A stretch of DNA of 64,000 nucleotides from an uncultured Alphaproteobacteria bacterium (GTDB lineage Bacteria > Pseudomonadota > Alphaproteobacteria > Caulobacterales > Hyphomonadaceae). The position numbers and the translations under genes were made by a program. Under the pieces are notes generated by a model. That model was given only the letters and a program-made list of their open reading frames with translations, ran no database searches and had not been told where the DNA came from. The stretch spans positions 62,001-126,000 of the forward strand of contig CAIKWZ010000043.1 in the NCBI GenBank assembly GCA_903831255.1, given 5' to 3'. Below are positions 2,762 through 22,763 of this stretch, in pieces (position 1 is the stretch's first letter; each line of letters starts with the position of its first letter).

Positions 2762-3967
2762 TCAGTTGTAGAATTCGAAGAGACCGGCTGCGCCCTGGCC
2801 GCCGCCGATGCACATCGTGACCACGCCGTACTTGGCCTTGCGGCGCCGGCCCTCAAGGAGGATGTGGCCGGTGCAGCGCGCGCCCGTCACGCCGTACGGG
2901 TGTCCGATGGAGATCGATCCGCCGTTCACATTGTACTTCTCCGGATCGATGCCGAGCCGGTCGCGCGAGTAAAGGCACTGCGAAGCGAAGGCCTCGTTCA
3001 GTTCCCACAGATCGATATCGTCGACCTTCAGCCCGTGGCGTTCAAGAAGGCGCGGCACGGCGAACACGGGACCAATTCCCATCTCGTCGGGCTCGCATCC
3101 GGCCACGGCGAAGCCGCGGAAGGCGCCCAGCGGCGCGAGGCCCCGACGAGCGGCTTCCTTGGCTTCCATCAGCACCAGCGCAGCGCCGCCGTCGGAGAAC
3201 TGGGAGGCGTTGCCCGCCGTGATGTGGCGACCCTGCTGGACCTTCTGCCCGCCCTTGAACACAGGCTCGAGCTTCTGCAGGTCGGCGAGGGTGGTCTGGG
3301 GCCGGTTGCAGTCGTCGCGCGTGACGACAGTGTCCACGATGGTGACCTCGCCGGTTTCCTTGTTGGTCTGCGCCATTTTGGTGGCCATCGGCACGATCTC
3401 GTCAGCGTACTTGCCGGCCGCCTGCGCCGCCGCCGTGCGCTGCTGCGAGGAGAGCGCGTAAAGATCCTGCGCTTCGCGGGTGACCCCGTAGCGATCCGCA
3501 ACGATCTCGGCTGTCTCGATCATCGTCATGTAGATGGCCGGGATGGTCGCCGAGAGTTTGACGTCGGCCCCCATGAACCGATTGCCTTTGCCGGACAGCT
3601 GGACGAGCGAGATGCTCTCCACCCCGCCTCCGATCACGATGTCCGAGCCGTCGCGGATCTGGCCGGCGGCGAGCGCCACGGCGTTGAGGCCCGAGGAGCA
3701 GAAGCGGTTGATGGTCGCTCCGGCCACCGTGGTCGGGCAGCCCGCCCACAGAGCGGCCTGGCGGGCGATGTTGCCGCCCGTGGCGCCTTCAGGGTTGGCG
3801 CAGCCCAGATACACATCCTCAACCTCGCCCGGTTCAAGGCCGGCCCGCTGAAGGGCGTGCTGAATGGCGTGTCCGCCAAGCGCCGCTCCATGGGTCTGGT
3901 TGAATCCGCCTCGGGCCGACTTGGCCAGGCCGGTTCTGGCCGTTGATACGATGACCGCCTCACGCAT
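2762..3967 (-). CDS. Acetyl-CoA C-acyltransferase (thiolase)
   Basis: This is a complete 401-residue thiolase, distinct from the neighbouring one. The nucleophile is Cys90 in INRFCSSGLN. The catalytic histidine is in SIGHPYGVTG, and the second cysteine is in TMCIGGGQGAAGLFEF at the C-terminus. The last block is typical of degradative FadA/FadI-type and broad-range acyltransferases of beta-oxidation. Its opening, MREAVIVSTARTG, is the normal family start. No fadB-like partner is adjacent; the nearby ECH1-like isomerase and thioesterases also act on acyl-CoA. The exact chain-length preference cannot be read from the sequence. Confidence 0.92.
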   Translation of the reverse strand: MREAVIVSTARTGLAKSARGGFNQTHGAALGGHAIQHALQRAGLEPGEVEDVYLGCANPEGATGGNIARQAALWAGCPTTVAGATINRFCSSGLNAVALAAGQIRDGSDIVIGGGVESISLVQLSGKGNRFMGADVKLSATIPAIYMTMIETAEIVADRYGVTREAQDLYALSSQQRTAAAQAAGKYADEIVPMATKMAQTNKETGEVTIVDTVVTRDDCNRPQTTLADLQKLEPVFKGGQKVQQGRHITAGNASQFSDGGAALVLMEAKEAARRGLAPLGAFRGFAVAGCEPDEMGIGPVFAVPRLLERHGLKVDDIDLWELNEAFASQCLYSRDRLGIDPEKYNVNGGSISIGHPYGVTGARCTGHILLEGRRRKAKYGVVTMCIGGGQGAAGLFEFYN

Positions 3968-18854: not shown

Positions 18855-20324
18855 ATGGCCAGGATGAATGATCCGTCTCGCTTGGAGGCCCGCAAGCCGA
18901 GGGGCTTTGCGGACAAGTCGGCGCCTGTGCTTGCCGCTGAACGTCGGCTGGTCGACGCCGTGTCGGCGGTTTACGCTCGCTGGGGGTTCGAGCCGCTCGA
19001 TACCGGCCCATTTGAGTATGTCGATGCTCTGGGCAAGTTTCTCCCGGACACGGACCGTCCCAATGAGGGCGTTTTCGCTCTTCAGGATGATGACGAGCAG
19101 TGGATCGCCCTGCGATATGATCACACCGCTCCTCTGGCCCGCTATGTTGCAGAGAACTGGGACCGTCTCGCCAAGCCTTTTCGGCGTTACGCCGCCGGGC
19201 CGGTCTGGCGTAACGAGAAGCCGGGACCATTTCGTTTCCGCGAATTCATTCAGTGCGATGCGGACGCGGTCGGCGTTTCAGGAGCAGGCGCCGACGCTGA
19301 GATGATCGCCATCGCCGCCGAGGCCATGCGGGCGGCGGGCGCCGGGACCGGGGAATTCGCCGTCCGGGTCAACACCCGCCACCTTCTCGACGGGGTCATG
19401 GAGGCTTCAGGCGTTCTCGATCCGGCTCTGCGCGGGGTGGTGCTGCGCTCTCTCGACAAGCTGGATCGCCTGGGACCGGAAGGCGTCGCCCTGTTGCTTG
19501 GTCCGGGACGTCGCGATGAGTCCGGAGACGTGACCCCCGGCGCCGGGCTGAACGCGGTTCAGATTGATCGTCTGCTCGCCTTCGCCGCCGCCCGCGGACC
19601 CACGCGTCGCGACACGATCGATCGTCTTGCCGCCGCCGCCGGGGGCAATGCCGCCTCGGATAGGGGGCTGGCCGAGCTGGATGTCATCGACACCCTTCTC
19701 CGGGCCCTTGGGGTGGGTGAAGAGGACGTCGTGTTCGATCCGTCCGTGGTTCGGGGGCTGGAGTATTATACAGGCCCCGTCTTCGAGGCGGAGCTCCTGC
19801 GGGAGTTCAAGGACGCCGAGGGCAGGCTCGTTCGTTTCGGATCGGTGGGCGGGGGCGGTCGATATGACGGCCTGGTGGCCCGTTTCAGGGGAGAGGCCTC
19901 TCCTGCGACCGGTTTTTCGGTCGGCGTCAGCCGGCTCGCCGCGGCGATGGCCGCCGGCGGCGAGATCTCGCTGGACGGTCCCATACTCGTCCTCGTGCTC
20001 GATCCGGCCTGCCTCGGAGATTACTTTGCGATCGCCGCAGAGCTCAGAGCGGCGGGCCTCAGGGCGGAGACCTATCTGGGCGCCTCCGGGATGCGGGCTC
20101 AGATGAAGTACGCGGATCGCCGCCGGTCTCCAGCTGTGGTGATTGTCGGAGAGAGTGAACGCGAACGCGGTGTGGCGACGATCAAGGATCTCAAGGTCGG
20201 GGCCGAGGCGGCCCGGTCAATTTCCGGAAATGACGAATGGCGTGCGGCTCGTCCTGGCCAGTTCGAGGTTCCACGTTCCGAGATGACCGCGCGTCTTCTG
20301 GAGATCGCAGGAGGCCGCCCATGA
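18855..20324 (+). CDS. hisS: Histidyl-tRNA synthetase
   Basis: This 489-residue class II synthetase charges tRNA-His. Motif 2 is in AAGPVWRNEKPGPFRFREF, with the histidine A-box LEYYTGPVFEAE and SVGGGGRYDGL of motif 3 further on. The C-terminal anticodon-binding domain is present (ILVLVLDPACLG to the KDLK segment). It is the first gene of hisS-hisZ-hisG; its stop codon overlaps the hisZ ATG by four bases. Pairing a true synthetase with its catalytically dead paralogue HisZ in one operon is common in alphaproteobacteria. Confidence 0.95.
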   Translation: MARMNDPSRLEARKPRGFADKSAPVLAAERRLVDAVSAVYARWGFEPLDTGPFEYVDALGKFLPDTDRPNEGVFALQDDDEQWIALRYDHTAPLARYVAENWDRLAKPFRRYAAGPVWRNEKPGPFRFREFIQCDADAVGVSGAGADAEMIAIAAEAMRAAGAGTGEFAVRVNTRHLLDGVMEASGVLDPALRGVVLRSLDKLDRLGPEGVALLLGPGRRDESGDVTPGAGLNAVQIDRLLAFAAARGPTRRDTIDRLAAAAGGNAASDRGLAELDVIDTLLRALGVGEEDVVFDPSVVRGLEYYTGPVFEAELLREFKDAEGRLVRFGSVGGGGRYDGLVARFRGEASPATGFSVGVSRLAAAMAAGGEISLDGPILVLVLDPACLGDYFAIAAELRAAGLRAETYLGASGMRAQMKYADRRRSPAVVIVGESERERGVATIKDLKVGAEAARSISGNDEWRAARPGQFEVPRSEMTARLLEIAGGRP

Positions 20325-21403
20325 ACTCGGGAGCGCGGGCCGTCGAAGACATGATCTTCGCCGTGGGAGGCGAGCGGATCGATCCGCCGACCCTGGCGCC
20401 GGCCAGGATGATCCTTGATCTGTCAGGCGAGGCGGTGCGTCAGCGCCTCTGCACCTTCCCGGACGGGGAAGGCGGCGAGCTCTGCCTTCGGCCGGACATG
20501 ACGGTTCCTATCGCCGCTCTGGTCGCTCAGGGCCGCAGAGCCCTTGCGCGTTATGTTTATTCAGGAACCGTCTGGCGTCTTCCGAGGTCTGGCTCCGGCG
20601 AGGCGCCGGAGTTTTCTCAGGTGGGTTTCGAATGGTTCGCCGGCGGCGGCCCGGAAGAAGATGCCGAAGCCTTCTGTCTGGCGATGTCTGCGGCGCAGGC
20701 CGGTGGAGAAAGATCCGCCCGGGTGCGAATCGGCGATGTGGCGGTGTTTTCCTCCCTTCTCAAGGGGCTCTCTCTGTCTCAGGCCTGGAGGGCGAAGCTC
20801 CTGCGCTCGTTTGCCCGCGGAGGGGCTCGTGAGGCTTTGGTCCCCCAGCCGCCAGCCTCGGCGCTGGCGACGGCTCTGGCCGGTTTGACCGCCGAGCAGG
20901 CAAGGCATGCGGTTGAGGAGATCTTCGCGATCGCCGGAACCGCATCCACCGGACAGCGCAGCGCTGCCGACATCGCAGGACGGCTGCGCGAGCGCGCCGA
21001 TGATCCGGGACCCTCCGCGCAGGCCTCTGAGGCCATTAGCGAGTATCTGTCACTTGAGTGCCCCGCGCACGAGGCGTCCGAGACGATCGCCAGCTTCGCT
21101 CGCAGACAGAGGGTGGACCTCGGACAGGCGCTCTCTGATTTTACCCTCCGTCAGGAGGCGATCGCCCGTCGGGCGCCGCCTTACTGGTCAACCGCGCGTT
21201 TCAGCGCCCGGGACGGATGGCGGTTCGAGTACTATGACGGGTTTGTCTTTGAGCTGGCCGCGCCGGAGACCCCCGATCGTCCTTCGGTCGCAGGCGGACG
21301 TTATGACGGACTTCTGGCGCGATTGAGCGGTCAGACGGTCTCGGCTCAGGCCATCGGCGCCGCAGTGCGCATGGATCGGCTGGACGCAGGGGCCTCGTCA
21401 TGA
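20321..21403 (+). CDS. hisZ: ATP phosphoribosyltransferase regulatory subunit HisZ
   Basis: This 360-residue paralogue of histidyl-tRNA synthetase lacks the anticodon domain and acts as the regulatory subunit of HisG in histidine synthesis. It keeps the synthetase-like core (LCLRPDMTVPIAALVA, YSGTVWRLP, AGGRYDGLLARL). The active-site motifs needed for histidine activation are degenerate. The frame is open to 20237, but AGGAGG six bases before the ATG at 20321 fixes the start. Start and stop both overlap neighbours by four bases (ATGA), so the three genes are translationally coupled. Confidence 0.93.
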   Translation: MNSGARAVEDMIFAVGGERIDPPTLAPARMILDLSGEAVRQRLCTFPDGEGGELCLRPDMTVPIAALVAQGRRALARYVYSGTVWRLPRSGSGEAPEFSQVGFEWFAGGGPEEDAEAFCLAMSAAQAGGERSARVRIGDVAVFSSLLKGLSLSQAWRAKLLRSFARGGAREALVPQPPASALATALAGLTAEQARHAVEEIFAIAGTASTGQRSAADIAGRLRERADDPGPSAQASEAISEYLSLECPAHEASETIASFARRQRVDLGQALSDFTLRQEAIARRAPPYWSTARFSARDGWRFEYYDGFVFELAAPETPDRPSVAGGRYDGLLARLSGQTVSAQAIGAAVRMDRLDAGASS

Positions 21404-22335
21404 CCCGACTTCGCCTCGCTATTCCTTCCAAGGGCCGTCTTAAGGAGCAGGCCGAGACCTATTTCTCCGGGGCGGGCTTCCGGCTGGAGCAGATCGGCGG
21501 AGCGCGGGGTTATTCTGCGCGCCTTCAGGGCCTGCCTGACATTGAGGTCATATTGCTCTCCGCATCGGAGATCGCTGCGGGTCTCGTGTCGGGAGACATT
21601 CATATCGGCGTGACGGGCGAGGATCTGTTGCACGAGACCGCCTCGGATCTGGACGCTGTCATTCATCTGCTGGCGCCTCTGGGGTTTGGTCGCGCCCGGC
21701 TCGTGGTCGCGGCGCCGCGGAGCTGGATCGATGTGGACACGATGGCCGATGTCGAGGATGTGGCGGCGCGGATGGAGGCGGCCACAGGTCGACGACTGCG
21801 CGTGGCCACGAAGTATGTTCGCTCGACACGCCGCTTCTTTTCCGCCTCGGGCGTCAGCAGCTATCGGATCGTGGAAAGCGCCGGGGCAACGGAAGGCGCC
21901 CCTGCGGCGGGCGCAGCGGAGTTGATCGTCGATATCACCACGACCGGCGCGACCCTGGAGGGCAATGGTCTCAAGATCCTGAAGGATGGACTGATCCTGG
22001 CCAGCGAAGCTCAGCTGGCCGCCTCGCTGAGAGCGGAGTGGACGCCCGAAGCGCTTCTCGGACTGAAGGCCCTGCTTGAGGGCATGGACGCTCGCTCGGC
22101 TGGCCGTGCGCTTCAGACGGTGCGCTTCTCTCCGGATCTCGATCCCGTCGCGCTGGGCCTCGACATTGAGGTCGTCGGACCGGGCGAGGGGCTGTGCGCG
22201 CGTGGGAAGGCTCATGAGCTCGCGCGCAGACTTGCCGAGGCTGGCGGCGGCCCGGTTCGGATCCTCGAGACCGAATTTGTCTACCGCGTACTCAACGAGC
22301 GATTCGAGCGATTTGTGGCGAGACGGCGCCTCTGA
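21400..22335 (+). CDS. hisG: ATP phosphoribosyltransferase HisG
   Basis: HisG catalyses the first step of histidine synthesis, joining ATP and PRPP. Residues 1 to about 215 form the catalytic core: RLAIPSKGRL, GVTGEDLL, ATKYVRSTRRFF and the PRPP loop ELIVDITTTGATLEGNGL. The protein is 311 residues long. HisZ-dependent short forms are usually 200-235 residues, so about 90 C-terminal residues remain unexplained. They do not obviously match the allosteric domain of long-form HisG. The gene is the last of the operon, overlapping hisZ by ATGA. Confidence 0.93.
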   Translation: MTRLRLAIPSKGRLKEQAETYFSGAGFRLEQIGGARGYSARLQGLPDIEVILLSASEIAAGLVSGDIHIGVTGEDLLHETASDLDAVIHLLAPLGFGRARLVVAAPRSWIDVDTMADVEDVAARMEAATGRRLRVATKYVRSTRRFFSASGVSSYRIVESAGATEGAPAAGAAELIVDITTTGATLEGNGLKILKDGLILASEAQLAASLRAEWTPEALLGLKALLEGMDARSAGRALQTVRFSPDLDPVALGLDIEVVGPGEGLCARGKAHELARRLAEAGGGPVRILETEFVYRVLNERFERFVARRRL

Positions 22336-22378
22336 ACGGGGGAGGTTCCGTGAAGGGCGGGGACGCAAATTGCTCTGC

Positions 22379-22403
22379 AGGGGGTGATCCGGCCCTTTTT
22401 TTT
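22379..22403 (+). terminator. Probable terminator of the his operon
   Basis: An imperfect stem (AGGG with CCCT enclosing GG/CC) is followed by eight T residues at 22396-22403, 43 bases after the hisG stop. The stem is short, so confidence rests mostly on the T-run. Confidence 0.45.
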
Positions 22404-22464
22404 CAAAGAAAGCTCGAAAAACTGCTCCTTAGGGGCGAATTCATGCCGAGCAAGCGTGACGAAT

Positions 22465-22494
22465 TTGTAAGACGCCGCTTGACTCCCCTAGATT
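22465..22494 (+). promoter_or_regulatory. Candidate promoter of the small RNA
   Basis: TTGTAA at 22465-22470 and TAGATT at 22489-22494 are 18 bases apart and would start transcription near 22500. An alternative reading uses TTGACT at 22479-22484 with a weaker GAATGT at 22502-22507, 17 bases on, starting near 22514. Confidence 0.4.
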
Positions 22495-22499
22495 GTGTT

Positions 22500-22599
22500 G
22501 GGAATGTGGCTACGAACCGCTTCGGTGGTTTGGCGTTTCGGGGAGGAAACGCTCTTGTCTGATACTTTAGGGGCTGCGCTCGGGCGCGGCCCCTTTTTT
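22500..22599 (+). ncRNA. Candidate three-hairpin small RNA
   Basis: About 100 bases without a convincing gene fold into three consecutive stem-loops. The first is a 6-bp stem closed by a cUUCGg tetraloop (22515-22530). The second is a perfect 7-bp stem (22533-22539 with 22546-22552) with a GGGGAG loop. The third is a 10-bp stem (22570-22579 with 22584-22593) followed by six T residues, a standard intrinsic terminator. The exposed purine-rich loop could pair with ribosome binding sites or recruit a protein; this is inference. I do not recognise it as SRP RNA, 6S RNA or tmRNA. Confidence 0.5.
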
Positions 22600-22763
22600 C
22601 TGTTTCGGCGTGCCAGCGTGCGGTTTCGGTGAAACATGGGGGCGCCCGGCGCATCGCCCGGGGAGGTTCTGCCGATCGTCAGACGTGACAGGAACTCGGC
22701 CAGCATCGCCGGCGGTGAGCCGCCTCAAACTTCCTCTTTGGGTCGGGACCGACCCGCCTATCT

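Follow-up and report, generated by a model that had tools for sequence, protein, structure and literature searches.

A probable CrfA-type sponge RNA behind hisG in an uncultured Hyphomonadaceae bacterium

Results

A conserved RNA gene lies between hisG and a choloylglycine-hydrolase-family gene in the window, by which we mean the whole 64,000-nucleotide stretch of DNA that was analysed; the small RNA proposed at this place in the initial annotation is real and conserved. Upstream of it and on the same strand are hisS, hisZ and hisG (18855-22335, plus strand; identified with Pfam), the conserved address of crfA, with hisG ending at 22335. A hairpin with a T-run at 22379-22403 (+), likely the his operon's own terminator, was found behind hisG, where a T-run of the operon had been described. 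The -35 box TTGACT (22479-22484, +) is located 35 nt upstream of the predicted RNA start and is present in 15/15 aligned loci (14 from the genus and that of G023) at a distance constant within two bases. A possible weak -10 element, GAATGT (22502-22507, +), follows 17 nt after the -35 box and was assigned by its position; a consensus scan found no sigma-70 promoter at the RNA locus. The promoter-like pair reported earlier is thus borne out in its TTGACT half, which is present and kept in place, but not in its weak -10 half. The evidence supports a separate small RNA behind the his genes that has a promoter-like box and ends in a terminator of its own. Two further stretches upstream of the -35 box, GGC...ATGCC (22432-22447, +) and TAAC...TGTAAGAT (22461-22478), are partly conserved in the genus and may be regulator sites.

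Comparison within the genus showed that 13 of the 14 other genomes match the RNA at E 3e-13 or better, and the sole genome in which no match was found is G012, which is 77% complete. Start points of the matches fall at 22510-22514 and end points at 22601-22605; the exceptions are the near-identical G014, which covers the whole query, G007, which begins at 22502, and G008, which extends only to 22569. Outside approximately 22514 to 22600 the flanks diverge in the genus, TTGACT excepted. Conservation in relatives corrects the annotated 22500-22599 and places the RNA at about 22514-22600 (+), a predicted transcript of ~87 nt whose ends are likewise predicted. Downstream, the choloylglycine-hydrolase-family gene (PF02275; 22764-23861, minus strand) lies between the RNA and groEL here and in G014, and groEL is the next gene instead at 12 of the 16 loci of the window's family, f1.

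The three structural elements originally described, a UUCG-capped hairpin, a stem with a GGGGAG loop and a terminator with six U, were all confirmed in the sequence. Hairpin 1 (22514-22531, +; GAACCGC-UUCG-GUGGUUU) is seen in the fold and in the alignment of relatives. Hairpin 2 (22532-22553, +) is composed of the 5' arm GGCGUUUC, the loop GGGGAG and the 3' arm GAAACGCU, and is common to CrfA loci. The intrinsic terminator (22569-22599, +) has an 11-pair stem (22569-22594) followed by a run of six T (22594-22599), the first of which also closes the stem. When 22514-22601 was folded, the three hairpins were both the minimum-energy and the centroid structure, with an energy of -42.9 kcal/mol compared to -29.7 +/- 3.3 for shuffled sequences (z -4.0; 0/200 as stable). 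Over 22500-22599 the z score was -3.5 and hairpin 2 was broken in the lowest-energy structure, so the start coordinate matters.

Covariation was examined in an alignment of 16 sequences, 12 of them distinct, from the genus, G023 and G019. Standard pairs filled 97.4% of the pair cells, compared with 43-54% in slid controls, and the covariation score was 0.127 against 0.066 +/- 0.011 for shuffles (0/500 as high), the tested structure being the consensus of the same alignment and hence favoured by the test. Six of the 26 pairs had changed on both sides: five belong to the terminator, and the sixth, in hairpin 1, is due to G019 alone, which is poorly aligned over the rest of that hairpin. Seven of the eight pairs of hairpin 2 never vary; they give no information on pairing, yet the sequence itself is held. 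The stems are accordingly conserved in relatives, as the annotation had expected of a genuine RNA, with paired changes mostly in the terminator. Its statement that the stretch lacks coding potential needs qualification, since short ORFs do overlap it, but the changes seen among relatives follow the pattern of a structured RNA.

No Rfam family reached its gathering threshold over the whole window, and the Rfam comparison proposed earlier therefore returned no known family at threshold. In a relaxed search of 22350-22720, ncS54 (24.8 bits), suhB/MmgR (22.7 bits) and BjrC1505 (22.3 bits) all stayed well below their cut-offs, and CrfA (RF01527) ranked sixth with 15.8 bits (cut-off 38) over model positions 42-61, the core hairpin only. 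Searches of 16 related loci placed CrfA above 38 bits in L019 (101.5), L018 (74.4) and L021 (49.0) and below the cut-off in three more, L020, L022 and L015. All of these loci have the core GGCGUUUCGGGGAGGAAACGC in little-changed form, and the candidate's core is identical to that of L018, L019 and L021. The candidate thus resembles CrfA in the core hairpin GGCGUUUC-GGGGAG-GAAACGC, in its place behind his genes, in its TTGAC box and terminator and in having a genomic alphaR8 partner; it differs in its length, ~87 nt versus 136 model positions, and in its 5' hairpin and terminator, which are unrelated in sequence to those of CrfA. Membership of alphaR8 itself (RF00519, suhB; also MmgR/SisA) was rejected, as the 22.7 bits compare with a cut-off of 41 and the candidate lacks the UUUCCUCCCU core and carries its complement. 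The two have the 8-mer GGCGUUUC in common and the 3' half of the candidate is a weak suhB match, but alphaR8 is the predicted partner of the candidate and not its relative.

To relate the candidate to Caulobacter crfA, 173 distinct core sites were inspected. TTGAC occurred within 130 nt upstream in 162 of them, a terminator within 110 nt downstream in 135, and both in 129; the corresponding numbers for 1000 random places in the same loci were 90, 24 and 4. Eleven core sites had no TTGAC: L069, L080, L141, L155 and L176 sit no more than 70 nt from the edge of their stretch, L128 is also cut, and the remaining L035, L079, L116, L160 and L168 are chance-like. For 154 core sites the sequence reached at least 1000 nt upstream; in 129 of these a co-oriented his gene (hisS, hisZ or hisG) ends no more than 800 nt away, being hisG alone at 82, hisS alone at 43 and hisS with hisZ at four; at f1 loci the count is 16/16. 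The other 25 comprise the chance matches L035, L116, L160 and L168 as well as real relatives, indicating that the address of crfA has moved in some lineages. Among the best 30 RF01527 loci (L228-L257), hisG or hisS is upstream in 27 (not L247, L248 or L249), and at the CrfA loci L228-L246 the upstream gene is hisG, as it is here.

A covariance model built from f1 alone (R1), whose E-values are rough, found the Caulobacter-type crfA L228 with 29.9 bits (E 6e-5) and the f3 relatives L024, L020 and L207 with 48.9-51.4 bits. In five CrfA loci R1 recognised the core and nothing outside hairpin 2 (22.4 bits, E 0.004). The real site L216 received 17.4 bits, no better than chance core sites (14.5-17.2 bits; 21.1 for L128), and 18 receptor loci gave no match at E 1. 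Because sequence, address and box together support it, orthology with crfA is the best reading; on that reading the flanking hairpins would have been replaced or have diverged relative to Caulobacter-type crfA.

PMC12559287 describes CrfA of Caulobacter as a sponge that depends on Hfq and acts on four alphaR8 sRNAs, SisA-D, a role shown in Caulobacter crescentus in 2025. Probing, replacement of the loop and compensatory mutations established there that the UUUCCUCCCU core of SisA-D binds the G/A-rich second hairpin of CrfA; carbon starvation induces crfA, which the starvation response requires and which lowers the sRNA level. Binding of Hfq by CrfA is reported in PMC11005374. The window's genome has one alphaR8 match, with 58.8 bits against a cut-off of 41, and alphaR8 was above cut-off in 36 of the 41 genomes searched. 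An N-formylglutamate amidohydrolase (FGase) gene (PF05013) adjoins alphaR8 here and converges on it, the linkage described for alphaR8 in PMC12559287.

Co-folding predicted that 22540-22554 (+) pairs with GGGCGUUUCCUCCCU of alphaR8 in 15 continuous pairs, including two G-U, and this helix joins the anti-Shine-Dalgarno core of alphaR8 to the loop and 3' arm of hairpin 2. The gain was 13.1 kcal/mol, or 15.2 with a shorter alphaR8, and in the latter test 0/50 shuffled partners were as good. Hairpin 2 is opened in the co-fold, and hairpin 1 and the two terminators remain intact. For the cross-genome co-folds, RNAs were taken at fixed lengths around the core, so that longer ones were cut. Across the genus and G023 (15 genomes) the helix had 15-18 pairs, with 0/50 shuffles as good in 14 genomes and 2/50 in G023. 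The outcome was mixed for seven genome pairs from other families, in which 1, 2, 2, 5, 7, 11 and 15 of 50 shuffles were as good; in G029, the longest helix lies outside the expected site. When duplex energy was calculated without intramolecular structure, 7/1000 shuffles were as good and many other stretches of the window scored better; plain duplex energy is therefore a poor measure, and the co-fold gain was used instead. This pairing also bears on the suggestion that the exposed loop binds ribosome sites. GGGGAGGAA is indeed Shine-Dalgarno-like, a consequence of its complementarity to the anti-Shine-Dalgarno core of alphaR8; the indicated partner is instead alphaR8, a proven partner in Caulobacter (PMC12559287).

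Targets of alphaR8 were sought in two ways. In a comparison of 30 TonB-receptor starts, drawn from 34 Plug matches, with 63 window ORFs, alphaR8 sites were not enriched at the receptors (p = 0.85); a 12-nt run occurs at a single receptor, L263. Strict sites of the form GGGAGGAA-N2-10-ATG numbered 14 in the window's own genome, versus six for the reversed pattern. As judged from the translations, four of the 14 precede plausible genes (L189, L194, L195 and L196) and none precedes a receptor, and therefore no alphaR8 target is claimed.

The distribution of the core was then compared with that of alphaR8. A scan of named genomes gave at least 118 core loci, nearly all labelled Caulobacter, Phenylobacterium, Brevundimonas, Asticcacaulis, Maricaulis, Aquidulcibacter, Hyphomonadaceae or their kin, and among the loci listed four are labelled as other groups (L079, L116, L128 and L168). 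L128 has a core and a terminator-like stretch on the reverse strand near 3946-3965 at a contig end of a MAG labelled Clostridia, where the 21.1-bit R1 match is cut off; it is a case of contamination or chance. Class-wide, the exact core is present in 5/385 genomes, and four of these are among the five genomes of this order in that sample. Order-wide, the core with at most two mismatches was found in 148/299 genomes, as against 20/299 for the reversed pattern. By family, it is present in 60/60 genomes of f2 and 20/61 of f1, and in f5 it occurs in six genomes, about as often as the reversed-pattern control. RF01527 matched 69 of the 299 genomes at E 0.001, 51 of them above the cut-off and all of these in f2; the five genomes of the genus that the sample included gave no match.

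AlphaR8 is present in 60/61 sampled f1 genomes, compared with 20/61 for the core, and is common in f5, where the core is near chance. The sponge is therefore patchy. In f4, G027 (L028) and G031 (L022) have the RNA, with 35.9 and 39.1 bits, but a model search found no alphaR8 match in either genome. An exact search for GTTTCCTCCC in five f4 genomes returned 24 sites, none in an alphaR8-like context as judged by eye. In some lineages, the target may differ or have diverged.

Discussion

The feature is probably this organism's crfA, which would encode a trans-acting sponge of alphaR8. On this reading, the ~87-nt RNA starts from a separate promoter behind hisG and stops at a terminator of its own. 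From analogy with Caulobacter CrfA we infer that this copy is expressed and acts in the same manner, as well as the order and purpose of the pairing. Hairpin 2 would display GGGGAG in its loop, and the CUCCCU of GGGCGUUUCCUCCCU in alphaR8 would dock there. The GGCGUUUC of alphaR8 could then displace the identical GGCGUUUC that forms the 5' arm of hairpin 2, yielding the 15-pair duplex. Such a duplex would mask the anti-Shine-Dalgarno core of alphaR8 and might thereby free alphaR8 mRNAs from repression. At every position, the 5' arm is identical to the segment of alphaR8 predicted to pair with the 3' arm. A tentative extension, which we consider somewhat doubtful, is that hairpin 2 evolved as a strand-displacement lock, in which the 5' arm copies the 8-mer of the target and pairing proceeds from the loop as toehold by branch migration; in G027 and G031, the lock would serve another anti-Shine-Dalgarno RNA. 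If true, this would explain why hairpin 2 is frozen and the terminator covaries. The 3'-arm variants of other families, GGAGACG and GGAAGCG, keep pairing on both sides as G-U and, like the frozen hairpin, fit strand displacement.

An ordinary mRNA-pairing sRNA, whose GGGGAG loop would pair with CU-rich stretches of mRNAs and whose complementarity to alphaR8 would be secondary, is an unlikely reading. G027 and G031, which keep the RNA although alphaR8 was not found there, speak for it. Direct mRNA pairing was the first idea for CrfA, but PMC12559287 describes that idea as withdrawn for Caulobacter, the target being unaffected without the sibling sRNAs, and the match of loop and 3' arm to alphaR8 extends across 15 pairs. 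Still less probable is that the RNA lacks a promoter and derives from the 3' end of the his operon mRNA. At 129/154 sites it closely follows a co-oriented his gene, hisG or hisS, which would suit such a product, but the his operon is followed by a hairpin and T-run that belong to it, the TTGAC box is kept at a set distance from the RNA, 25/154 sites (four of them chance matches) have no his gene alongside, and starvation induces Caulobacter crfA independently (PMC12559287). The CsrA-titrating role raised in the initial annotation can be set aside with near certainty: the loop does contain GGA, but the host has no CsrA, its gene (PF02599) being found in 0/21 genomes searched, this one included, with E. 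coli, B. subtilis and T. maritima positive as controls.

The RNA is thus a new member of the CrfA sponge family that lies beyond the reach of the published model and has a likely partner in the same genome. Its novelty is limited, as both the kind of RNA and its mechanism are already published; we found no report of CrfA outside Caulobacter in the open-access literature. The sponge and its his address seem to reach further families of the order that are missed by the Rfam model, which suggests a circuit possibly much older than a single genus. This RNA is a naturally compact form that retains only the target hairpin unaltered, which makes it useful for testing what suffices for sponging. By its description in PMC12559287, QrrX of Vibrio, a sponge of Qrr sRNAs, is similar to CrfA-type RNAs in being independently transcribed and inactivating sibling sRNAs by pairing, in different bacteria and with a different partner from those of the candidate.

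PMC12559287 states that the regulator that switches crfA on is still to be determined, and the comparison of crfA loci offers a lead. TTTGAC-N6-GTCAAA is absent from G463, G649 and G000 and occurs once, elsewhere, in G014. In G444 (L317) and G664 (L318), which are Caulobacter-type, it occurs at two places per genome only, -195 and +109 from the core, which bracket crfA and are 304 bp apart in each; it is a candidate operator of the crfA regulator. The shorter TTGAC-N6-GTCAA was not found in the window's family with this spacing. Across dereplicated crfA regions, it occurs in exact form upstream of the -35 in 36/129, compared with a mean of 0.00 in 100 shuffles, and at spacing 6 only. Its distances to the -35 cluster near 54, 63, 86, 96, 107 and 118, approximately one helical turn apart. 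In L318, the translation of +252 to +1185 from the core reads as a LysR-type regulator, whose gene converges on crfA.
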